NCBI GenBank assembly: GCA_026196615.1
Contig: JAPHSW010000007.1
Span: 1 to 55,106, forward strand
Direction of reading: 5' to 3'
Source: Gammaproteobacteria bacterium
Lineage (GTDB): Bacteria > Pseudomonadota > Gammaproteobacteria > GRL18
DNA: 55,106 bases
A program made the position numbers and the translations under genes. The notes beneath the pieces are model-generated. The model had not been told where the DNA came from. It did no database searches and was given only the letters and a program-made list of their open reading frames with translations. Positions 4,167-26,629 of this stretch are shown one piece after another (within the stretch, counting starts at the first letter, position 1; the number at the start of each line of letters is the position of its first letter).

Positions 4167-5827
4167 ACCCCATATTCAGTGATGTCTTTACAGAAATGGC
4201 TGTATTACTGATGCTAGCTGCTGTAATTGGCGTCATAGGCATCCGATTGCGACAACCGCTGATTGTTGCTTTTATTGTTGTGGGTATTTTAGTTGGGCCA
4301 TCTGTACTTGGTTGGGTGTCAGCAAATGATCAGGTTGATCTCCTTGCTAAGCTTGGGATTGCGCTGTTATTGTTTGTCGTTGGTCTTAAACTGGATATGA
4401 AAATCATCCGCTCCATGGGACCTGTGGCTTTGGCTACAGGTATGGGGCAGGTGATGTTTACTTCAATAATAGGCTATTTGTTTGCAATCATGCTTGGGAT
4501 GAATGCTGTCACTGCACTATATGTGGCAGTGGCATTGACCTTTTCAAGCACCATTATTATTGTCAAATTATTGTCTGATAAACGTGAAGTGGACTCACTG
4601 CATGGACGGATTGCTATAGGCTTTTTAATTGTTCAGGATATTGTGGTCGTTCTGGTCATGATTGGTTTGACAGCATTAGGTGAAGCTGGTGATGCACTCA
4701 GTCTAGGCCAGGAGGCATTGGAAGTTATATTTAAAGGTGGTGTTTTTATTGGTGCCATTGCTTTACTTATGCGCTATGTATTAACACCACTACTACACCA
4801 GTTAGCTCGTTCACCGGAGCTACTGGTATTGTTTGCAATTGCCTGGGCAGTAGCTTTAGGTGCATTAGGCACACATCTTGGGTTCAGTAAAGAAGTTGGT
4901 GCATTTCTTGCCGGAGTTTCCCTGGCTTCGACACCTTATCGTGAAGCTATCGGTGCTCGGTTGGTAAGTTTAAGAGATTTTCTGTTACTATTTTTCTTTA
5001 TTGATCTAGGGGCTGGACTTGAGATGGCAACACTAGGCTCACAGGTAGTACCCGCAATTATTCTTTCATTATTTGTTCTCATCGGTAATCCATTAATTGT
5101 GATGACTATATTAGGGGTCATGGGCTATCGAAAGCGTACAGGATTTCTGGCAGGTCTGACAGTCGCTCAAATCAGTGAATTTTCCCTAATTCTGGGTGCA
5201 TTGGGTTTGAGTTTGGGACATATCAACGCTGATACGATGGGACTCATCACTTTGGTGGGATTAATCACAATCAGTGCTTCGACTTATATGATCCTCTATT
5301 CTCATCCTCTTTATGAGTGGCTATCACCTCGGCTTGGATTATTTGAACGTAAACGACCCTATCGAGAAGAGTCTAGAGAACTGAGTATTGCTGACGATGA
5401 AATCGATGTGATTTTATTCGGGCTTGGAAGATTTGGTTCTGGGATTGCATCTGAATTGCAACAACGTGGTCTTCGTGTGATCGGCGTTGATTTTGATCCT
5501 ATCCTTACACGCCAACAGGAAGGAAATGGTTATATTGTACGTTTTGGTGATGCAGAAGATCCAGAATTTGTTAACAGTCTTCCACTTGAACAAGTCAGTT
5601 GGATAATCAGCAGTGTTAGAGAAATTCCAGTCAATCTGGCACTATTGCATTGTCTCCATGAATATGGATATAAAGGGAAGGTTGCTGCAACAGCTCATTC
5701 TATTCCTAATGCTGAAAGATTGAAACAAGCTGGAGCTGAACAGGTTCTGATACCTTATGCTGATGCTGCTACAGAGGCAGTTGATATTTTGTTTGGTAAA
5801 AACAGTGATATTCAATCAAAACAATGA
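4163..5827 (+). CDS. CPA2-family monovalent cation/H+ antiporter with TrkA-N domain (KefB/YbaL-like)
   Basis: A 554-residue protein with an N-terminal Na+/H+ exchanger domain of about 12 helices (residues 1-385) and a cytosolic Rossmann domain (about 410-540). The membrane part has VGILVGPSVLGW, LLFVVGLKLD and TFSSTIIIVKLLSD, typical of KefB/KefC. The nucleotide-binding part has the glycine-rich signature DVILFGLGRFGSGIA followed by an acidic residue (GVDFDP), as in NAD(H)-binding TrkA-N domains. Such proteins release K+ in exchange for H+ under control of the ligand domain. It overlaps the BON gene by four bases. KefC-style glutathione gating cannot be shown from sequence. Confidence 0.87.
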   Translation: MNPIFSDVFTEMAVLLMLAAVIGVIGIRLRQPLIVAFIVVGILVGPSVLGWVSANDQVDLLAKLGIALLLFVVGLKLDMKIIRSMGPVALATGMGQVMFTSIIGYLFAIMLGMNAVTALYVAVALTFSSTIIIVKLLSDKREVDSLHGRIAIGFLIVQDIVVVLVMIGLTALGEAGDALSLGQEALEVIFKGGVFIGAIALLMRYVLTPLLHQLARSPELLVLFAIAWAVALGALGTHLGFSKEVGAFLAGVSLASTPYREAIGARLVSLRDFLLLFFFIDLGAGLEMATLGSQVVPAIILSLFVLIGNPLIVMTILGVMGYRKRTGFLAGLTVAQISEFSLILGALGLSLGHINADTMGLITLVGLITISASTYMILYSHPLYEWLSPRLGLFERKRPYREESRELSIADDEIDVILFGLGRFGSGIASELQQRGLRVIGVDFDPILTRQQEGNGYIVRFGDAEDPEFVNSLPLEQVSWIISSVREIPVNLALLHCLHEYGYKGKVAATAHSIPNAERLKQAGAEQVLIPYADAATEAVDILFGKNSDIQSKQ

Positions 5828-16267: not shown

Positions 16268-17380
16268 ATGAAAAGGGTTGGTTTTGTAGGCTGGCGTGGC
16301 ATGGTGGGTTCAGTACTCATACAGCGTATGCGTGATGAGAATGACTTCACTGAGATTGAGCCTGTATTTTTTACGACTTCACAAGCAGGTCAGGCTGGGC
16401 CCGACATAGGTAAAGACGTTCCGACCTTAAAAGATGCGAAATCAATTGACGAATTGAAATCCATGGATGTTATCGTCACCTGTCAGGGTGGAACTTATAC
16501 GAAAGAAACCTATGGTGAATTGCGCAACGCTGGATGGAATGGTTATTGGATCGATGCAGCTTCAAGTCTTCGTATGGTTGATGAAAGTATCATTGTTCTG
16601 GATCCAGTCAATAAGAATGTCATTAAAGATGGTCTTGCTAATGGCGTAAAAACCTTTGTAGGTGGTAACTGTACTGTCAGCTTGATGTTAATGGGTATTG
16701 GTGGCTTATTTGAAAAAGATCTGGTTGAATGGATTACTCCAATGACATATCAGGCAGCATCAGGTGCTGGCGCTAAAAATATGCGTGAACTAATCCGTCA
16801 AATGGGTGCAGTCAATGATCATGTAAAAGTTTTAAATGATGATCCAGCAACAGCTATTCTTGAAATTGATAAGTCCATTACCGATTTTATGCGCAGTGAT
16901 GCATACCCAACTGAACAATGGCCTGCACCACTGGCTGCTAGTCTATTACCATGGATTGATGTTCCACTAGAAAGTGGTCAAACTAAGGAAGAATGGAAAG
17001 CTCAAGTAGAAACCAATAAGATTTTAGGGCGTTCAAATAATCCTGTTCCTATTGATGGACTTTGTGTTCGTATTGGTGCAATGCGTTGTCATTCACAGGC
17101 GTTAACAATTAAGATGAAGCAGAACGTACCGCTGGATGAAATCAGTGATATTCTGTCACAACACAATGACTGGGTTAATGTTGTAGACAATAATCCTGAT
17201 GACACACTTAAGCATCTGACACCAGCAGCAGTGACTGGCACTTTGACTGTACCTGTAGGTCGTATGCGTAAACTAACTATGGGTGATGATTACTTATCTG
17301 CCTTTACCGTAGGCGATCAATTATTATGGGGTGCAGCTGAGCCACTACGCCGTATGCTACGTATTCTTCAAGAATCATAA
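16268..17380 (+). CDS. asd: Aspartate-semialdehyde dehydrogenase
   Basis: A 370-residue enzyme catalysing NADPH-dependent reduction of L-4-aspartyl phosphate to aspartate semialdehyde, the branch point to lysine/diaminopimelate, threonine and methionine. The N-terminal Rossmann motif is VGFVGWRGMVGSVL; the catalytic cysteine is in GGNCTVSLMLMGIGG at residue 135, the same position as in E. coli; and the substrate-binding RxGAMRCHSQ segment with the catalytic histidine is present. Length and motifs match the Gram-negative-type Asd. ATG 16268 follows AGGA at good spacing, and a strong terminator follows at 17401-17432, so the gene is probably monocistronic. This is a housekeeping gene and anchors the window to the chromosome. 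Confidence 0.97.
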   Translation: MKRVGFVGWRGMVGSVLIQRMRDENDFTEIEPVFFTTSQAGQAGPDIGKDVPTLKDAKSIDELKSMDVIVTCQGGTYTKETYGELRNAGWNGYWIDAASSLRMVDESIIVLDPVNKNVIKDGLANGVKTFVGGNCTVSLMLMGIGGLFEKDLVEWITPMTYQAASGAGAKNMRELIRQMGAVNDHVKVLNDDPATAILEIDKSITDFMRSDAYPTEQWPAPLAASLLPWIDVPLESGQTKEEWKAQVETNKILGRSNNPVPIDGLCVRIGAMRCHSQALTIKMKQNVPLDEISDILSQHNDWVNVVDNNPDDTLKHLTPAAVTGTLTVPVGRMRKLTMGDDYLSAFTVGDQLLWGAAEPLRRMLRILQES

Positions 17381-18033: not shown

Positions 18034-18231
18034 TTTATTTTCCTTTCAATATTATATATATTCATTATCGACTTATGGGCTTAATAAACTATGCGTATTC
18101 TTATCATTAATATTTCGGATTTTACGTATTGATTATAAATTTATTTTCATAGAAATTAGTGCTATCTATTAATCTTATTTGTAATGCTCTTGACTATACT
18201 GTGACAGAGTGTCTCTGTTATGGATAAAGAT

Positions 18232-18412
18232 ATTTCCACTTCCTCACAACTTTTTAACCTTTTCTTAGCTTTTTCTTAACATTTGTACTGCTAATATTGC
18301 GTCATTATTGTAAACCTGAATTAACGAGAAACCGGCATTAATGCAAAATACTATAACCTTCAAAGTCATTACTGGTATAGCAACAATTGTTTTTCTATGT
18401 CTTATAGGAATA
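18232..18412 (+). repeat. Promoter-and-start-codon repeat, intact copy
   Basis: From TTTCCACTTCCTCACA through the leader and about the first 24 codons of the GGDEF-EAL gene, this segment is clearly similar to 22920-23098. Both copies carry the three TTAAC-type boxes and the CATTATTACA/CATTATTGTA element. This is the functional copy, since it ends in a real ATG at 18341. Confidence 0.75.
18253..18280 (+). promoter_or_regulatory. Three direct TTAAC/TTAGC boxes at 11-bp period (putative OmpR-family operator)
   Basis: TTAAC at 18254-18258, TTAGC at 18265-18269 and TTAAC at 18276-18280 are spaced exactly 11 bp apart, in the form CTTA(A/G)C-N5-CTTAAC. Direct hexamers at one helical turn are typical for OmpR/PhoB-family regulators, and the half-site resembles the PmrA-type box (CTTAA-N6 repeats). 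The gene downstream ends in an OmpR-type DNA-binding domain, so autoregulation is a reasonable inference. Confidence 0.6.
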
Positions 18413-21400
18413 GCAATCATTTTCAGTGCGTTGACTGTTTCTCATGAAGCGGTTGAATGGATTGCAAATGTGGAAGAACCCATTAGTACTGCTGTTGATG
18501 AAATGGAAATCAATGTTGTCGAGATGGGTATGGGGGTGTTCAAGTACATCAATACATCAGAAGATAAATATCAGGCAAATTTTTATAAAGATGCGACAGA
18601 CTTTGATCAATTCAAAGTGCAATATGACCACCTTGCTCACAGTGAACAACAACAGGTAATGGGGCTTCAGCTGACCAATGTCTACCAGGAGTATAGAAAG
18701 TTGGGTGAAGCCATTATGAAGCTGCATGCAAAGCAGGAAATTGGCTTTCAAAAAATTACAGAAAATTTGTTTCAGATACAAGAAATTACTCATAATCCAA
18801 ACGTTATAAATAAAATCCCTAAGTTTCAGGTTGACGATAAAGAATCAACATTATTACAAATTGAAGAAACAGTGAAGATGATGCAAATCTGGTTGGTCAC
18901 TTATCTGCAGTTTGAACGCATAGAAGACAAAGAACAAGTATTGCTGAATGTAAAAGACCTGGAAAAATTAATAACTGGATACCGCAGATATTCATTCAGT
19001 TCATTGGAGCTTCAGGGAGTCCGAAACATTGAGCGTTCAGTAGATATTATTTCTAAAACTATTCCGGCGGTGATTATTCTCAATGAAGAAATGAAAAAAA
19101 ACATACACAGATTTCTCAAGTTGCGTGAAGAAATAGACGATGCTCTTGATGGAGGTTTACAGGCATTAACAATGTCTGACCTAAATAAAGCAAAATTAAC
19201 ATCAACACAGACTAGTAAAAATGCAAAAAATATCGTTCTAATACTAATACCTATTATTGTATTATTTGGCATGACTGTGGGTTGGCTGGTTGTTCGCGGT
19301 GTTAGGAAACCTGTACAGCAACTTATTTCTGGTGCTGCTTCAATTGGTTCAGGTGATTTGAGCCATCGTATTGAGATATTGGGAAATGATGAGTTGGGCT
19401 TCCTGGCACAGGAATTTAATCGGATGGCAGAAAAACTTGAGGAAACATTAGTTTCAAAAGAGCAGTTACAGTTAAGTCAGGATAATTTATTGCTTAGTGA
19501 AGAGCGCTACCAACTTGCTGTGAATGGTGCTAATGATGGACTCTGGGATTGGGATATCAGTACTGGTAAAGCTTATTACTCATCACGTTGGAAATCAATG
19601 CTTGGGTATTCTGATGATGATATTGGTACAAGCCAGGACGATTTTTTCAAGTTAATACATCATGAAGACATCAACCAGACACGTAAGGCTCTTGTTACTC
19701 ACCTTAAGGATCCTGTTGAACACTTTGAAAGTGAATACCGGATACGTTGTAAAAATGGTAATTACAGATGGGTACGTTGTCGTGGCCAGGCAATGGTGGG
19801 GGAAAATAATAGAGCTATTCGTATGGCGGGGTCACAAAGTGATATTAATGATCATAAACTCATTGAACAGAAGTTAGAATACGATGCATTTCATGATTCA
19901 TTGACTCAATTATCTAATCGGCCTCTACTACTAGAAAGGTTACAAAAATCAATTAAGCGTTCCAAACAATATCAGAATTACTCATTTGCACTTCTTTTTT
20001 TGGATATGGATAATTTTAAGATTGTTAATGACAGCCTTGGCCATCCGATAGGTGATTTATTATTAGCCAGCATTGCACGCCGTCTTGAAGTAATACTGCG
20101 TAAATCTGATACCTTGGCACGATTCGGTGGTGATGAATTTGCCATACTACTTGATGATCTGGATGATGCATCTGAAGCATTAAATATTGCACAGAGTGTT
20201 CATGATGAACTTGAGGCAGCGTTCGTTCTTAATCAACATGAAATACAGATCAGTGCAAGTATAGGTATTACAGTAAGCAATGAAAGTTACGGTAATGCAG
20301 AAGAAATGCTCCGTGATGCTGATATTGCAATGTATCATGCTAAATCCATGGGCAATGCAAATTACCATATGTTTGATGATGGCCTGCGTAAAAAAGCAAT
20401 GCAACGCTTAAAACTGGAAACTGAGTTACGACGAGCCACCGAACAGAATGAGTTTATTGTTTATTATCAACCTGTGGTTGATTTATATAGTGGCATGATT
20501 AAAGGCTTTGAAGCACTGATTAGATGGCAACATCCTGAACGTGGTTTGATTATGCCCAACGAGTTTATTCCTATTGCTGAAGAAACTGGTTTGATAAAAC
20601 CTATTGGAAAATGGCTGCTGAAAGAAGTTTGTAGCCAAACCTCTGAGTGGCATACAGCTGGTTATAAGTCAGTAGTTTCGGTGAATGTTTCTCCTGTTCA
20701 ATTACAGGACGGATTACCAGATGATTTATCCGAAGCATTGAAACAAAGTGAATTAGACCCACGATATCTAGTGATTGAAATCACCGAAAGTTCGGTAATG
20801 CAAAACCAACAACATGCTCAAGACTTATTGCAAGAATTAACCCTGCTCGGAGTTGGTTTAGCAATTGATGATTTTGGTACAGGCTATTCCTGTCTGAGTT
20901 ATCTAATACAATTCCCATGGAGCAAAATAAAAATTGACCAAACATTCATTCGTAACATTCCAGAAGACATGGATAATGTTGCTATTATCAAGGCTATCAT
21001 TAGCGTTGCTCGTAGTCTTAATTTGGAAATAATTGCTGAAGGTGTAGAAACTGAAGCACAGTTATGCTGGTTAAAGAATTGTGGCCGAATTGGATTGCAA
21101 GGACATCTGTTCAGTAAGGCGGTACCAGTTCATGATGTAATTCCTATGTTAAAACAAACATCATGGAAAATAAATGACAAACTTGAAGGTTTTGCCAGTG
21201 GCGCTGATGATTATCTTGTGAAACCCTTTGCCATGCAAGAGCTTGATGTTCGTCTGAAGGCTTTAGTGAGACGAGTGCGTGGAGAACAGTCACAGGAGCT
21301 TTTACAAGTTGCTGACCTGGTATTTAACCCTGTCACCTTGAATGTAAAAAGAGATGGAAAAAATATTTCTTTACCACCGATTCCATTAAAGATACTGACC

Positions 21401-21607
21401 TTATTAATTCAACAATCACCTCGTGTGATACCACGGAATGAGATCGAGCGGCGTGTATGGGGAGACATTCGACCCGAGAGTGATGCATTACGCGCCCATA
21501 TGTCTGTATTGCGCACTGCAATTGATCGTCCTTTTAGTAATCACTTGTTGAGAACCGTACATGGTATTGGTTATCAACTGATCGCGTCCGATGAAATTCA
21601 GGATTAG
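18341..21607 (+). CDS. Membrane sensor with PAS-GGDEF-EAL fused to an OmpR-type DNA-binding domain
   Basis: A 1088-residue chimera. In order: TM1 (about 8-30), a helical periplasmic sensor (about 31-294), TM2 (about 296-316), HAMP (about 317-370), PAS_3-type domain (about 385-510), GGDEF (about 520-680, motif RFGGDEFAIL intact near residue 595, RKSD inhibitory-site-like motif five residues before), EAL (about 690-940, with FEALIRW, IDDFGTGYS and AEGVET all present), then abruptly the last third of a receiver (GFASGADDYLVKPF) and a complete OmpR/PhoB winged helix (about 990-1085). The receiver's phospho-acceptor aspartate is gone. Both c-di-GMP synthesis and hydrolysis motifs look competent. 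Overlaps the kinase gene by 17 bases. The regulator half was probably a QseB/PmrA-like protein. Confidence 0.85.
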   Translation: MQNTITFKVITGIATIVFLCLIGIAIIFSALTVSHEAVEWIANVEEPISTAVDEMEINVVEMGMGVFKYINTSEDKYQANFYKDATDFDQFKVQYDHLAHSEQQQVMGLQLTNVYQEYRKLGEAIMKLHAKQEIGFQKITENLFQIQEITHNPNVINKIPKFQVDDKESTLLQIEETVKMMQIWLVTYLQFERIEDKEQVLLNVKDLEKLITGYRRYSFSSLELQGVRNIERSVDIISKTIPAVIILNEEMKKNIHRFLKLREEIDDALDGGLQALTMSDLNKAKLTSTQTSKNAKNIVLILIPIIVLFGMTVGWLVVRGVRKPVQQLISGAASIGSGDLSHRIEILGNDELGFLAQEFNRMAEKLEETLVSKEQLQLSQDNLLLSEERYQLAVNGANDGLWDWDISTGKAYYSSRWKSMLGYSDDDIGTSQDDFFKLIHHEDINQTRKALVTHLKDPVEHFESEYRIRCKNGNYRWVRCRGQAMVGENNRAIRMAGSQSDINDHKLIEQKLEYDAFHDSLTQLSNRPLLLERLQKSIKRSKQYQNYSFALLFLDMDNFKIVNDSLGHPIGDLLLASIARRLEVILRKSDTLARFGGDEFAILLDDLDDASEALNIAQSVHDELEAAFVLNQHEIQISASIGITVSNESYGNAEEMLRDADIAMYHAKSMGNANYHMFDDGLRKKAMQRLKLETELRRATEQNEFIVYYQPVVDLYSGMIKGFEALIRWQHPERGLIMPNEFIPIAEETGLIKPIGKWLLKEVCSQTSEWHTAGYKSVVSVNVSPVQLQDGLPDDLSEALKQSELDPRYLVIEITESSVMQNQQHAQDLLQELTLLGVGLAIDDFGTGYSCLSYLIQFPWSKIKIDQTFIRNIPEDMDNVAIIKAIISVARSLNLEIIAEGVETEAQLCWLKNCGRIGLQGHLFSKAVPVHDVIPMLKQTSWKINDKLEGFASGADDYLVKPFAMQELDVRLKALVRRVRGEQSQELLQVADLVFNPVTLNVKRDGKNISLPPIPLKILTLLIQQSPRVIPRNEIERRVWGDIRPESDALRAHMSVLRTAIDRPFSNHLLRTVHGIGYQLIASDEIQD

Positions 21608-22856
21608 TCTTCGCAATCGCGTTTCATTTGCATTTGCCCTGATGGGAATGTTAGTCAGTTTAGGGCTAGCGGGAACTTTTTATTTACTCACTATCAATAT
21701 GGAGCAACGTCTTATTGCTGAAACACTTTCGGCAGAGCTTGAAGATTATATTGCACGCTATAAAATCAATCCAGAAACACCTCCACCGTCCAGCACAACA
21801 ATCCAAACCCACGTAATCCTACCAGGGAAAAAATATTCGTCTACAGTGTTACAAAATCTGACAACTGGTTTGCATCAGGTGCAATTGGAAGGAAGAGAAT
21901 ATTATGCTGAGGTACGTCTGGCTGATAAGATGCATTTTATTGTGTTGTATGATGACCAACAGATTCGGCATCGTGAAGATCAGCTCAAGTTTTTCTTTGG
22001 TTTAGGTGTGCTTCTCATGACAATGTTATCCGCAATGCTTGGTTTCTGGATGGCAGATCGTGTTATTTCACCTGTAGGAAATCTGGTTGCACGGGTCGCT
22101 GACCTTCGGCCTGAAGATGATCCTGAACCATTAACTAATGACTTTCCGCGTGATGATGTAGGTGCTCTTGCTCGTGAATTTGATGCTTATCAACAAAGGC
22201 TGGCTGCTTTTATTGAGCGTGAACAGGCTTTCACCTCTGATGTCAGCCATGAGTTACGTACACCACTTGCAGTGATTGAAGGTGCAAGTGAAGTATTGCT
22301 AGATGATCTGGACCTGAGTGAAGCTCAACATGTACGGGTCGAGCGAATTGCACGATCGGCACGGGCAATGTCTGAGCTGGTTTCAGCTTTGTTATTGCTG
22401 GCACGAGAAGAGAACGGTTATTATTCGGGAGATGGTTGTGCTGTGGAAAAACTATTGCCACAAGTCGTTGAGGGAAGTCGACACTTGTTACGGAATAAAC
22501 CTGTAAAAATTATACTCGATATCCAGGTACAAATGTTCTTGCAGGTTGAATGCACACTGTTAAGTGTTGTAATTGCTAATCTTATTCGTAATGCCCTTTA
22601 TTATACCGAACATGGACAAGTTTCTATCTGTCTGAATGAACAAGGTGTTTCTGTTATGGATACGGGAATTGGTATGTCTGAAAAACAAATACAGCGTATA
22701 TTTGATCGTTATTACTCAGAATCAACAACTGGCGAAGGTATTGGACTTTCCTTGGTGAAACGAATTTGTCAACGTTATGGCTGGAAAATTGATATTGAAA
22801 GCCATGAAGGAGAAGGGACTATTTTCCAATTATTACTTAAATCGACTGCCAATTAA
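21591..22856 (+). CDS. Sensor histidine kinase of the fused regulator (QseC/PmrB-like class)
   Basis: 421 residues. TM1 about 11-33, a short periplasmic loop of about 100 residues, TM2 about 133-155, HAMP, then HisKA with AFTSDVSHELRTPLAVIEG (phospho-accepting His near residue 219) and HATPase_c with NLIRNALYYT (N box), VMDTGIGM (G1) and GEGIGLSLVKRI (G2). Complete and apparently active. Its start lies inside the end of the upstream gene, as expected for a coupled regulator-kinase pair. The puzzle is the partner: the linked regulator lacks its phospho-acceptor domain, so the kinase must act on another regulator or signal differently. Confidence 0.9.
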   Translation: MKFRISLRNRVSFAFALMGMLVSLGLAGTFYLLTINMEQRLIAETLSAELEDYIARYKINPETPPPSSTTIQTHVILPGKKYSSTVLQNLTTGLHQVQLEGREYYAEVRLADKMHFIVLYDDQQIRHREDQLKFFFGLGVLLMTMLSAMLGFWMADRVISPVGNLVARVADLRPEDDPEPLTNDFPRDDVGALAREFDAYQQRLAAFIEREQAFTSDVSHELRTPLAVIEGASEVLLDDLDLSEAQHVRVERIARSARAMSELVSALLLLAREENGYYSGDGCAVEKLLPQVVEGSRHLLRNKPVKIILDIQVQMFLQVECTLLSVVIANLIRNALYYTEHGQVSICLNEQGVSVMDTGIGMSEKQIQRIFDRYYSESTTGEGIGLSLVKRICQRYGWKIDIESHEGEGTIFQLLLKSTAN

Positions 22857-22919
22857 TACGTAGGTGACAATAATTCTGGGGCATCCTTTTCAATAGTTTT
22901 AAGTTGTTAATTTAAAACT

Positions 22920-23098
22920 ATTTCCACTTCCTCACATCTTTTTAACACTTCCTTAGCCTTTCCTTAACATTTGTGTTGTTAATATAACATCATTATTACA
23001 AGCCTTAGTAAAGAGATATCAGTTTAAATACAAAGTACTACAACTTTAAAATTATTATTTGTATTACAACAATTTTTTATCTGTTTCTTATAAAAATA
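22920..23098 (+). repeat. Degenerate second copy of the promoter/start region
   Basis: Similar along its length to 18232-18412. The three boxes are retained at 11-bp period (TTAAC 22942-22946, TTAGC 22953-22957, TTAAC 22964-22968). The equivalent of the GGDEF-EAL start codon has become AAATAC, and the following codons are decayed. It now lies directly upstream of the CZB gene, which it may drive. Best explained as a duplication whose coding part was lost. Confidence 0.7.
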
Positions 23099-23116
23099 AA
23101 AATTTAGGATAGTTTA

Positions 23117-23563
23117 ATGGACAAAAAAAAAATAATTCTGCAACTACGTCAAGCTAAATCTGCTCATATTAAATGGCGAGCATATGCCCAGGCACTTGTT
23201 TCTGGACTTCCAGTAGAAAAAGAGCATTTACCAGTAATACATACAGACTGTGCTTTTGGTCAATGGTACTATGGTGATGGCCAGCATTTATCTCATCTCA
23301 GTTCATTTGACGCAATCAGTACTCCACATGAAATGCTTCACCAAGTTTATATCAATATTTATAAACTCCTTTATGGTGAAGATGAACGTTCAACATTAAA
23401 AAAAATATTTGGCAGAAAATCCAGTCATGATCCCAAAAAAGAAGCCAGAATCCTGTTACAAGATTTATTATCCATTTCAGGAACTTTATTAGAAGCGATT
23501 GCTCTTCTTGAAAATGAAGTTAATGAAATGTCGGCTGAGGATTTTTCAAAGATTTTCCAGTAA
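23117..23563 (+). CDS. Stand-alone CZB (zinc-binding chemoreceptor-type) domain protein
   Basis: 148 residues consisting of a single CZB domain. The expected zinc ligands are visible: His in AHIKWRAY (about residue 17), Cys in TDCAFGQWYYGDG (about residue 50) and two His in STPHEMLHQ (about residues 76 and 80). CZB domains bind Zn2+ with very high affinity, and in E. coli DgcZ and in chemoreceptors they control output, including diguanylate cyclase activity. Here no output domain is attached, but a GGDEF-EAL protein lies upstream. ATG 23117 follows AGGA. It is preceded by the decayed promoter duplicate and followed 57 bases later by the SulP gene. A trans-acting zinc or redox sensor is a plausible inference. 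Confidence 0.85.
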   Translation: MDKKKIILQLRQAKSAHIKWRAYAQALVSGLPVEKEHLPVIHTDCAFGQWYYGDGQHLSHLSSFDAISTPHEMLHQVYINIYKLLYGEDERSTLKKIFGRKSSHDPKKEARILLQDLLSISGTLLEAIALLENEVNEMSAEDFSKIFQ

Positions 23564-23620: not shown

Positions 23621-25355
23621 ATGAAATTTGAGGTTTTTTTTCCATTTCTTATCTGGTTTAAATTACTGACAAAAGAATCTATTAAAGCTGATTTTATAGC
23701 GGGTTTAACGGGAGCAGTAATTGTTCTCCCACAAGGTGTTGCTTTTGCAACAATTGCGGGACTACCACCAGAATATGGTCTTTATACGGCAATGGTAACA
23801 CCTATCATTGCTGCTTTATTTGGTTCATCATTTCACCTGGTTTCAGGACCAACCACAGCTATTTCAATTGTTGTTTTCTCAGCAGTCAGTCATCATGCAA
23901 TACCTGGTACACCTGAATTCGTTTCCATGGCATTGACATTGACTTTTTTAGCTGGTGTGTATCAATTTACTTTTGGGATCGCAAGAATGGGCTCACTAGT
24001 TAATTTTGTCTCTCATACCGTAGTGATTGGATTTACAGCAGGAGCAGCTATTTTAATTGCAACGAGTCAGCTAAAACATATCACAGGAATTTTTGTCCCG
24101 AAGGGTGAAACCTTTCTTCATACATGGATAGAGTTATATGCTGGAGTAGGAGAGCTTAACCCTTATCTACTGGTTATTGGTTTTTCAACATTAGTCAGTG
24201 CACTTATTGCAAAACATTATATGCCAAAACTTCCTAATTTATTGATTGGAATGGTCTTTGGCAGTTTACTTGCTTTATTCTTAAAAGATTATACAGATAT
24301 TGAACTGGTCGGTGAAATTCCAGCACATTTACCACCTTTTTCACATCCTGAGTTTACTTTTTCAAACACTAAAATTGCTTGCACCAGAGGCATTTGCTGT
24401 TGCTTTATTAGGTTTAATTGAAGCAGTTTCTATTAGCCGAGCAATTGCTACTAAATCTAGCCAAAGAATAAACTCAAATCAGGAATTTATTGGGCAAGGA
24501 TTATCTAATATGGCAGGTAGTTTTTTTTCCAGTTATGCTGGTTCAGGATCATTTACTCGTTCAGGGATCAATTATGAAGCTGGGGCAAAGACGCCACTCT
24601 CTGCAATGATTGCCGCAATTTTTTTGATGTTTATTGTTTTATTAATTGCACCTTTAACTGCATACTTACCAATTGCTGCAATGGGCGGTATTATTTTACT
24701 AGTGGCGTTTAATTTAATTGACTTTTACCACATTAAACACACTTTGTTATTTAATAAATCAGAATCTAGTATTTTACTTACTACCTTCTTTGCTACATTA
24801 TTTCTCGAATTGGAATTTGCTATTTATCTTGGAGTTTTATTGTCACTCATTCTGTTCCTGGCAAAAACATCGACCCCCAGAATTCCAACCTTATCTTTTG
24901 ATGATCAAAGTGATATTGAAAAACGCAAGCTAATCAATATTAATAAAAAACCTATTAAACAATGTCCTCAACTGAAAATAATCCGTATAGATATGTCCAT
25001 TTATTTTGGATCGGTTAATCATATTCAAAATCGGATTGCACAAATTGTGGATCATGAGAGAATTTATAATATATTAGTTGTTGCGTCCGGGATCAACTTC
25101 ATTGATTTAGCTGGTGCAGAAGCATTACTGGTAGAACATAATAAATTAAAAGAAGAGGGTGGTGGTTTATTTTTTGTTGGCCTGAAATCATCTGTTTATG
25201 AGTTTGCTGCCAAATCATGTTTTGTTAAGAAAGTTGGTAATGATCATTTTTTTGATTCCAAAAAGGAAGCTTTTGCTTCAATTTATAAAAAATTAGATAG
25301 AAACTCTTGCATAAAATGTAATGCTTTGATTTTTGAGGAATGCGAATCTGTCTAA
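23621..25355 (+). pseudogene. SulP-family anion transporter with STAS domain, interrupted by a one-base frameshift
   Basis: Two overlapping frames (23621-24421 and 24300-25355) make one SulP protein of about 578 residues. The first encodes the N-terminal membrane half (DFIAGLTGAVIVLPQGVAFA, the sulphate-transporter signature GLPPEYGLYTAMV), the second the rest of the membrane domain (LIEAVSISRAIA, GSGSFTRSGINYEAGAKTPLS) and a cytosolic STAS domain (VASGINFIDLAGAEALL). The break is in an AAAA run at 24371-24374: removing one A gives a continuous NTKLLAPEAFAVALLG. Substrates in the family include sulphate, bicarbonate and other anions; which applies here is unclear. The insertion may be genuine or a read error. 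ATG 23621 follows GGGGA. Confidence 0.85.
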
Positions 25356-25633
25356 TCTCAAATCTAGATTGTTAATTAAAAAAGCAACTAAAGAAATGAA
25401 CATGAAATTGTATAGGGCTTGGAGGCTTGCTTATGGCTACCTGTACTATATTCAATATTTCTTTATTGTATGTTTTATTCATACCTGAGTGTTTTACTTG
25501 GTCTTGAAATTAAAATATTAATCCTTACTTATATACTATAGTGAATTAATTTTTAAGTTTTAGTCTTTTTTAACTAAAGATTAATAATGAACAAAATTAT
25601 TATGGCTAATTTTTATTGAGAGGAGATAATTTT

Positions 25634-25924
25634 ATGCTGGCCCAAATACTTTCATGCCAAGATGCAAGGAGCGTCCTTAATCAGGGAGGACAACTCGTTG
25701 ATGTTAGAACCCCATCAGAACATCAGCAATTTGCACTCCCAGGCTCTACAAATCTTCCATTACAAGAAATAGGCTCTGCAAGTAATAAGTTAGATAAAAA
25801 TAAGCCTGTGATGGTTTATTGTCAAAGTGGTGCTCGTAGTGAGCAAGCAAAATATTTTTTGAATAGCATGGGATTTAATCAAGTTTATAATCTTGGCTCT
25901 GTTCAAAATTATTATAATTGTTAA
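25634..25924 (+). CDS. Single-domain rhodanese (GlpE/PspE-like)
   Basis: A 96-residue rhodanese-like sulfurtransferase. It shows GGQLVDVRTPSEHQQFALPGS, and the active-site loop YCQSGARS with the persulfide-forming cysteine at residue 63. The start is ATG 25634, eight bases after AGGAG; a TTG at 25616 is upstream of that site and unlikely. No signal peptide, so cytosolic. It ends 12 bases before the persulfide-dioxygenase-like gene, so the two form an operon for sulfane-sulphur handling: the rhodanese may pass sulphur to or from glutathione persulfide. Confidence 0.9.
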   Translation: MLAQILSCQDARSVLNQGGQLVDVRTPSEHQQFALPGSTNLPLQEIGSASNKLDKNKPVMVYCQSGARSEQAKYFLNSMGFNQVYNLGSVQNYYNC

Positions 25925-25936
25925 TGGAGATATAAC

Positions 25937-26629
25937 ATGCAAATCAGACAATTATTTGATAGTGAAACAAGTACATTTACCTATCTATTATGGAATGAAG
26001 CATCCAATGAGGCTGCCATTATTGATTCAGTTCATGAACTATTTGAAAGAGACAGTGCCCTAATTTCTGAATTAGGGCTCACATTAAAATATGCATTAGA
26101 AACCCATGTACATGCTGACCACATAACAGCATCGGGTTTGTTACGGGAACATTTTGGTGCTACTGTTGCATTGCATGAGAATAGTCAGGCATCTTGTGCC
26201 GATGAATTGTTAATTGAAGGTCAGATCATACTTTTGGGAAATGAACAGATTGAGATTATTTACACGCCTGGACATACAAATACAGACATCAGTTATAAAA
26301 TCAACGGTAGTGTCTTTACTGGTGATGCTTTGATGATACGTGCCTGTGGCCGAACAGATTTCCAATCAGGTGACAGTCAAGTTCTCTATCATTCAATCAC
26401 AAAAAAATTATTCCAGTTACCTGATAATACAATAGTTTATCCTGGACATGATTATAATGGCAGAACTGCTTCTAGTATTGGTGAAGAGAAGGCTTTTAAC
26501 CCTTATTTTGCCAATGTTTCTGAAAAGGGATTTATAAAAAAAATGGATGAGCTTAATTTGCCTCAACCAAAAAAAATTGATATAGCAGTACCTGGCAATA
26601 TGGCTTGTGGCATGGAGAAAGTTGCTTAA
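25937..26629 (+). CDS. Metallo-beta-lactamase-fold persulfide dioxygenase-like protein (ETHE1/Blh type)
   Basis: 230 residues. The metal motif THVHADH occupies residues 56-62, with further ligands in TPGHTN (about 112), FTGDALMIRACGRTDFQ (Asp near 132) and YPGHDYNGR (about 173). The GRTDFQ loop is characteristic of ETHE1-type persulfide dioxygenases rather than glyoxalase II. Family reaction: GSSH + O2 to sulphite + GSH at a mononuclear Fe(II). ATG 25937 follows GGAG. Pairing with a rhodanese supports this role. It converges on the small membrane-protein gene at 26640. Confidence 0.87.
   Translation: MQIRQLFDSETSTFTYLLWNEASNEAAIIDSVHELFERDSALISELGLTLKYALETHVHADHITASGLLREHFGATVALHENSQASCADELLIEGQIILLGNEQIEIIYTPGHTNTDISYKINGSVFTGDALMIRACGRTDFQSGDSQVLYHSITKKLFQLPDNTIVYPGHDYNGRTASSIGEEKAFNPYFANVSEKGFIKKMDELNLPQPKKIDIAVPGNMACGMEKVA

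Follow-up and report, generated by a model that had tools for sequence, protein, structure and literature searches.

The 55,106-nucleotide (nt) stretch of DNA from an uncultured gammaproteobacterium that we analyzed (contig JAPHSW010000007.1 of assembly GCA_026196615.1, GTDB lineage GRL18; the whole stretch is called the window below) contains a gene in which a membrane-anchored enzyme of cyclic di-GMP (c-di-GMP) metabolism continues directly into the C-terminal part of an OmpR-type response regulator. The fusion gene and its parts, with positions counted from the first letter of the window, are as follows.

18341-21607, plus strand: fusion gene, one unbroken open reading frame (ORF) of 1088 amino acids (aa), in the order sensor, HAMP, PAS, GGDEF, EAL, receiver remnant, winged helix (Pfam, ORF list)
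18377-18433, plus strand: membrane segment 1, aa 13-31 (hydropathy)
18434-19231, plus strand: predicted extracytoplasmic sensor region, aa 32-297 (sequence search)
19232-19288, plus strand: membrane segment 2, aa 298-316 (hydropathy)
19289-19444, plus strand: HAMP, aa 317-368 (Pfam)
19571-19831, plus strand: PAS_3, aa 411-497 (Pfam)
19886-20356, plus strand: GGDEF domain, aa 516-672 (Pfam)
20423-21118, plus strand: EAL domain, aa 695-926 (Pfam)
21173-21274, plus strand: receiver remnant NDKLEGFASGADDYLVKPFAMQELDVRLKALVRR, where homology to free regulators begins
21356-21580, plus strand: OmpR-type winged helix (Trans_reg_C), aa 1006-1080, E 1.5e-13 (Pfam and structure match)

The reading frame is real and the architecture was confirmed. 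A preliminary description, made from the letters alone, had seen here a membrane-anchored GGDEF-EAL protein fused to a phospho-dead OmpR tail with a full winged helix, and each part of this held: the single ORF encodes two hydrophobic segments, Pfam recognized GGDEF, EAL, and Trans_reg_C (the last at aa 1006-1080), and no Pfam match to Response_reg was found in the fusion protein, the homology to regulators starting after the part of the receiver that carries the Asp. The EAL domain is complete, since its match spans positions 3-235 of the 236 of the profile; aligned with the MucR and MorA structures and with 17 relatives (18 sequences with the fusion), it keeps all the residues that are invariant across the alignment. 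The GGDEF motif lies at aa 596, preceded at aa 587 by RKSD, which fits the inhibitory site of a diguanylate cyclase. Both enzyme domains therefore look active, as judged from these residues. Relatives of the sensor region (about 27% identical) were found in 3 of the 369 genomes of the class besides its own, and all were histidine kinases.

Sequence of OmpR type begins at aa 945/946 (nt 21173-21176), from NDKLEGFASGADDYLVKPF onward. Free regulators with tails 77-82% identical over the matched stretch were found in 3 of the 369 class genomes, G312, G248, and G132 (loci L189, L190, and L191, respectively), each with an intact 228-aa regulator gene followed by a kinase gene. The blastn homology of the window to these three regulator-kinase pairs (67-70% identity) starts sharply at 21173/21174 and ends at 22792-22810. 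At the protein level, the 143-aa tail of the fusion is 81-84% identical to the three regulators, and the kinase encoded behind it 63-66% identical to theirs. The free regulator of L189 has Response_reg at 3-112 and Trans_reg_C at 146-220; the receiver part with the phospho-acceptor Asp is absent from the fusion. No near copy of this missing part, or of the regulator, was found in the fusion's own assembly, where the next best regulator was 38% identical. From the alignment, we place the probable breakpoint at the start of receiver helix 4, which means that the helix 4-strand 5-helix 5 face is retained in the sequence; according to excerpts of PMC2586830, this is the dimer face in OmpR/PhoB regulators. 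The structures nearest to the tail were those of OmpR/PhoB regulators, among them Klebsiella pneumoniae PmrA with PmrA box DNA (4s04_A, rank 14). In the model of the tail, the winged helix was confident (predicted local distance difference test score, pLDDT, about 85-96), and its DALRAHMSVLR stretch is unchanged in the fusion.

The surroundings of the gene contain repeated and decayed pieces, which we list together with the genes that lie downstream.

18170-18199, plus strand: kinase-gene scrap, matching 22577-22606 (87%)
18204-18226, plus strand: kinase-gene scrap, matching 22640-22662 (87%)
18225-18417, plus strand: left copy of the promoter and first enzyme codons (repeat comparison)
18253-18280, plus strand: box upstream of the fusion, three tandem half-sites TTTAAC/CTTAGC/CTTAAC with an 11-nt period
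21591-22856, plus strand: histidine kinase, 421 aa, HisKA and HATPase_c intact, overlapping the fusion gene by 17 nt (ORF list, Pfam)
22913-23103, plus strand: right, decayed copy of the promoter and first enzyme codons, start codon lost (repeat comparison)
22941-22968, plus strand: box between the kinase and CZB-SulP genes, three tandem half-sites TTTAAC/CTTAGC/CTTAAC with an 11-nt period
23117-23563, plus strand: CZB-domain protein of 148 aa, behind the second box (ORF list, Pfam)
23621-25355, plus strand: SulP-type permease carrying a STAS domain, read in two frames that overlap (ORFs, Pfam)

The 100 nt from 18225 are repeated at 22913 with 80 identical positions, and the two copies continue into the coding start of the enzyme, where 58 of 76 ungapped positions match. 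The whole local alignment of the left and right copies scored 200, as compared with a maximum of 68 in 200 shuffles. Upstream of the left copy, no ungapped matches scored higher than the two kinase scraps (22 and 15), which are nearly collinear; the top score in 150 shuffled controls had a mean of 12.8 and did not exceed 18. The window thus holds the order kinase-box-enzyme twice, as scraps and a box 5' of the fusion and as an intact kinase, a box, and a decayed enzyme start 3' of it, and the fusion junction marks the place at which the regulator part of one unit follows the end of the unit before it. Most likely, a tandem duplication of a unit comprising regulator tail, kinase, box, and enzyme brought the middle of the regulator gene directly behind the end of the enzyme gene. 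The ancestral operon would have consisted of regulator and kinase, followed by the target promoter of the regulator, with three CTTAAC half-sites, and a gene for a membrane sensor-PAS-GGDEF-EAL protein. The fusion would have resulted from one breakpoint at the enzyme gene's 3' end and a second one where receiver helix 4 begins, and the outer copies would afterwards have decayed to scraps.

The TTAAC boxes noted in the preliminary description proved real, and the set at 22941-22968 came in addition. The pattern CTTARC-N5-CTTAAC occurs twice in the window as compared with 0.01 expected, a post hoc figure as the pattern was derived from these sites; its one-mismatch version was not enriched in the window (7 versus 13.5 expected). 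A three-half-site box was also found directly after the kinase in all three close relatives (L189, L190, and L191, with scores of 17, 15, and 16 of 18), and at each locus none of 1000 shuffles gave as good a score. The relatives' scores are independent, while those of the window are not, because the consensus was derived from it. This indicated that kinase, box, and target follow each other in an inherited order. A weaker site (13 of 18; 14 of 1000 shuffles as good) precedes sulP in the sulP-regulator-kinase cluster of L189. PmrA boxes are described in excerpts of PMC3973317 as tandem CTTAAG/XTTAAT half-sites 5 bp apart, and the boxes of the window match this geometry in sequence, being tandem direct repeats with an 11-nt period at a candidate regulated promoter. 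The box behind the kinase thus has the appearance of a target promoter that was inherited, with the enzyme gene as its target in this lineage; since the fusion, the output half of the regulator would be part of the protein that this target gene encodes.

We also asked how far the tail has changed since the fusion. Compared with L189, it shows 84% aa identity (23 of 143 aa differ, summed over both branches), with a proportion of nonsynonymous differences (pN) of 0.10 and of synonymous differences (pS) of 0.78. In the receiver remnant, all 33 aa are identical although only 76 of 99 nt are (23 differ). The two copies of the coding start differ at 24% of their positions; with a standard correction, we estimate from this about 0.14 changes at each site per copy. 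When neutral change was simulated at 0.15 per site, the tail acquired a mean of 40 aa changes, 0 of 1000 runs left the remnant unchanged, and 10% of the runs produced no stop; at 0.05 per site, the corresponding values were 15 aa changes, 2.6%, and 40%. As fewer changes were observed than the simulation at 0.15 gives, the tail has probably been under constraint after the fusion.

The same domain order was sought in other genomes, as the preliminary description had proposed, and was seen in none of the matches listed. No match running from EAL into a winged helix was listed with the full-length query (57 relatives including the own genome), with an EAL plus tail query (369 class genomes, best 5 candidates per genome), or with a query of the EAL end plus tail (398 genomes of the phylum, best 6 per genome); this covers the matches listed, so that rare fusions may be missed. 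Several candidates were discarded. G020:C320 and G045:C39 both end soon after the EAL domain, and at G766, G584, and G498 the long reading frames proved to be read-through frames containing regulators with full receivers. L094, the only locus reaching residue 1083 among 80 loci kept of 572 relatives, consists of two separate genes. Among 5000 plasmid records, one place covered at least 80% of the query and was annotated as separate genes; viral contigs gave none. The combined EAL plus tail alignment was misaligned and was not used, and the tail part of the EAL plus tail model was uninformative because no alignment rows covered it. No paper listed in the literature searches on such fusions describes a GGDEF-EAL-winged-helix fusion in its title or the opening of its abstract, and CdeR, which carries no EAL according to excerpts of PMC11960120, is not relevant as a precedent. 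The own genome (G000) is very rich in GGDEF, EAL, PAS, and HAMP genes, 138 places matching the fusion protein.

The closest known counterpart is PdeL (YahA), a trigger phosphodiesterase of Escherichia coli, which, as reported in excerpts of PMC5052742, unites EAL and a helix-turn-helix in a single polypeptide, binds the promoter region of its own gene, and activates itself less in the presence of c-di-GMP. Like PdeL, the fusion combines an EAL domain with conserved catalytic residues and a DNA-binding domain in one chain, and it has a box at the promoter of its own gene. Unlike PdeL, whose helix-turn-helix is N-terminal and of LuxR type, it has a C-terminal winged helix of OmpR type on a membrane protein; to our knowledge, PdeL has no GGDEF, HAMP, PAS, or membrane segments. 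Enzyme-regulator fusions of c-di-GMP proteins are thus already known; a membrane GGDEF-EAL protein with an OmpR-type tail at its C-terminus was seen nowhere else among the matches and papers listed. The C-terminal winged helix and the tandem CTTAA half-sites 5 bp apart are shared with PmrA-type OmpR/PhoB regulators, from which the fusion differs in that its receiver is truncated at helix 4, lacks the phospho-acceptor, and is placed behind an EAL domain. With the L189, L190, and L191 pairs, the window shares a homologous tail and kinase and the box after the kinase, but these loci have a separate intact 228-aa regulator and, as the next gene, a CitMHS-family transporter (by Pfam in L189, by ORF position in L190 and L191). 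The preliminary description had likened the protein to CadC and ToxR, with which it has in common a winged helix tethered to the membrane. CadC and ToxR have an N-terminal winged helix, one membrane pass, and a periplasmic C-terminus and are not known to carry a c-di-GMP enzyme, while the fusion has two hydrophobic segments, a C-terminal winged helix, and such an enzyme. Because of the opposite placement of the DNA-binding domain, we did not retain CadC/ToxR as a model.

With the phospho-acceptor part of its receiver lost, the fusion should not respond to its kinase, to which it would be blind. Dimerization through the sensor/HAMP/PAS/GGDEF/EAL part would replace phosphorylation, and the winged helix would bind both sets of tandem boxes, those of its own promoter and those in front of CZB-SulP, making its own operon and CZB-SulP the putative targets. 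Whether the fusion binds DNA would be decided, in a PdeL-like manner, by how the sensor/GGDEF/EAL part oligomerizes and by whether c-di-GMP is bound to it, and binding or turnover of c-di-GMP would tune the fusion, as in PdeL. That the protein is a working transcription factor tied to the state of its GGDEF and EAL domains is plausible, the more so because the tail is conserved, DALRAHMSVLR is unchanged, and the boxes match; its DNA binding, its enzymatic activity, and the coupling of the two are inferred. To the full reading, in which the fusion would be a duplication-born, phosphorylation-independent, membrane-tethered regulator of its own and the CZB-SulP promoters with c-di-GMP turnover as input, we give an even chance. 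Somewhat below that stands, tentatively, the view that the fusion joined a regulator, at its original site, to the c-di-GMP enzyme that its target gene encodes, which would have turned a phosphorelay into a self-binding, membrane-tethered regulator fed by c-di-GMP turnover and left the former kinase without a receiver.

Several results weigh against this reading. The fusion is known from one genome only, and no other genome showed the ancestral order regulator-kinase-box-enzyme, which leaves the scars as the basis of this history. The neutral clock is rough and presumes that the decayed copy reflects the neutral rate. Three-point estimates of the nonsynonymous rate (dN) gave about 0.08 for the tail on the fusion branch versus 0.03 for L189, and 0.14 for the kinase on the window branch versus 0.11 for L189, indicating that the tail evolved somewhat faster. 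The receiver remnant was modelled with low confidence (pLDDT about 52-66), which gives no support for a folded dimer face; as nothing shows that the remnant folds alone, we rejected it as a proven dimer face. As to the boxes, the consensus used in the scan came from the window itself, none preceded the regulator genes of L190 and L191, and none reached a score of at least 11 of 12 in 12 loci with more distant regulators. The box was not enriched genome-wide either (3 exact sites versus 4 for the reversed control), and a genome-wide box regulon was therefore rejected.

Part of these results could also be understood if the fusion were real but its tail an inert or structural passenger, kept for translational coupling to the kinase, the protein being a sensor GGDEF-EAL enzyme only. 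The position of the kinase ATG (21591, 17 nt short of the fusion ORF's end), the somewhat accelerated tail, the remnant with no confident fold, and the restriction to one genome all agree with this. Coupling, however, requires an open frame and not 84% aa identity with a 33/33 remnant; moreover, the recognition-helix stretch DALRAHMSVLR is unchanged and both matching boxes are intact beside the tail, so that we hold this explanation to be rather unlikely. It is less probable still that the duplication produced a dominant-negative or constitutive DNA binder, which would occupy the boxes regardless of c-di-GMP and use the enzyme as a membrane anchor only. The isolated C-terminal domain of PmrA binds its box without a receiver (excerpts of PMC3973317), no phospho-acceptor remains in the fusion, and the link between the EAL state and the tail is one that we infer. 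Nothing speaks directly against such a binder, but the conserved EAL and GGDEF residues suggest that turnover still matters. Finally, two loci might have been misjoined in a draft genome (288 contigs, 99.2% complete), and no relative carrying the fusion was seen. We consider this very improbable: the reading frame runs through the join without a stop, nothing else in the assembly closely repeats the junction (the best other match, 75% over 100 bases, lies in another regulator), the missing receiver piece is on no contig at high identity, and the diverged duplicate scars on both sides agree with the breakpoint model. The preliminary description had named a separate intact regulator gene in all relatives, with no fusion, as a result that would refute its reading. 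In form, this is what we found, as the relatives examined have the intact separate gene and no fusion was seen in them; the scars nonetheless argue for an evolved breakpoint rather than an assembly error.

Some further observations were made on the neighboring genes. The SulP permease is split into two frames (23621-24421 and 24300-25355), indicating a frameshift or a sequencing error; its L189 relative is intact (590 aa). The free regulator-kinase pairs (L189 5533-11749, L190 6947-12769, and L191 2985-9292) adjoin genes resembling anion transporters (SulP and CitMHS/Na_sulph_symp in L189, CitMHS in L190), hinting that the regulon of the pair serves anion uptake. In L191, an ORF between kinase and transporter (5123-5599) resembles, in our own reading, a piece of a transposase. 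CZB domains occur in zinc-sensing cyclases and chemoreceptors, and here a stand-alone CZB-domain protein (23117-23563) adjoins a c-di-GMP enzyme. Rhodanese and metallo-beta-lactamase-fold genes follow SulP (25616-26629), suggesting a sulfur-related locus. The upstream neighbor asd (16268-17380) was of little help: a gene of this type matched at E 1e-60 in no more than 3 of 24 genomes of the family; in G018 other genes follow it, and in G003 the contig ends at asd.

If the regulatory reading is correct, the locus would be a two-component system caught in the act of becoming a one-component c-di-GMP switch. One DNA step would have rewired a phosphorelay into a c-di-GMP-fed regulator that is still under its own target promoter, and the orphaned kinase left behind would have a traceable fate. 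The fusion would also offer a direct bench case for the question whether a membrane-held GGDEF-EAL protein can serve as a transcription factor.

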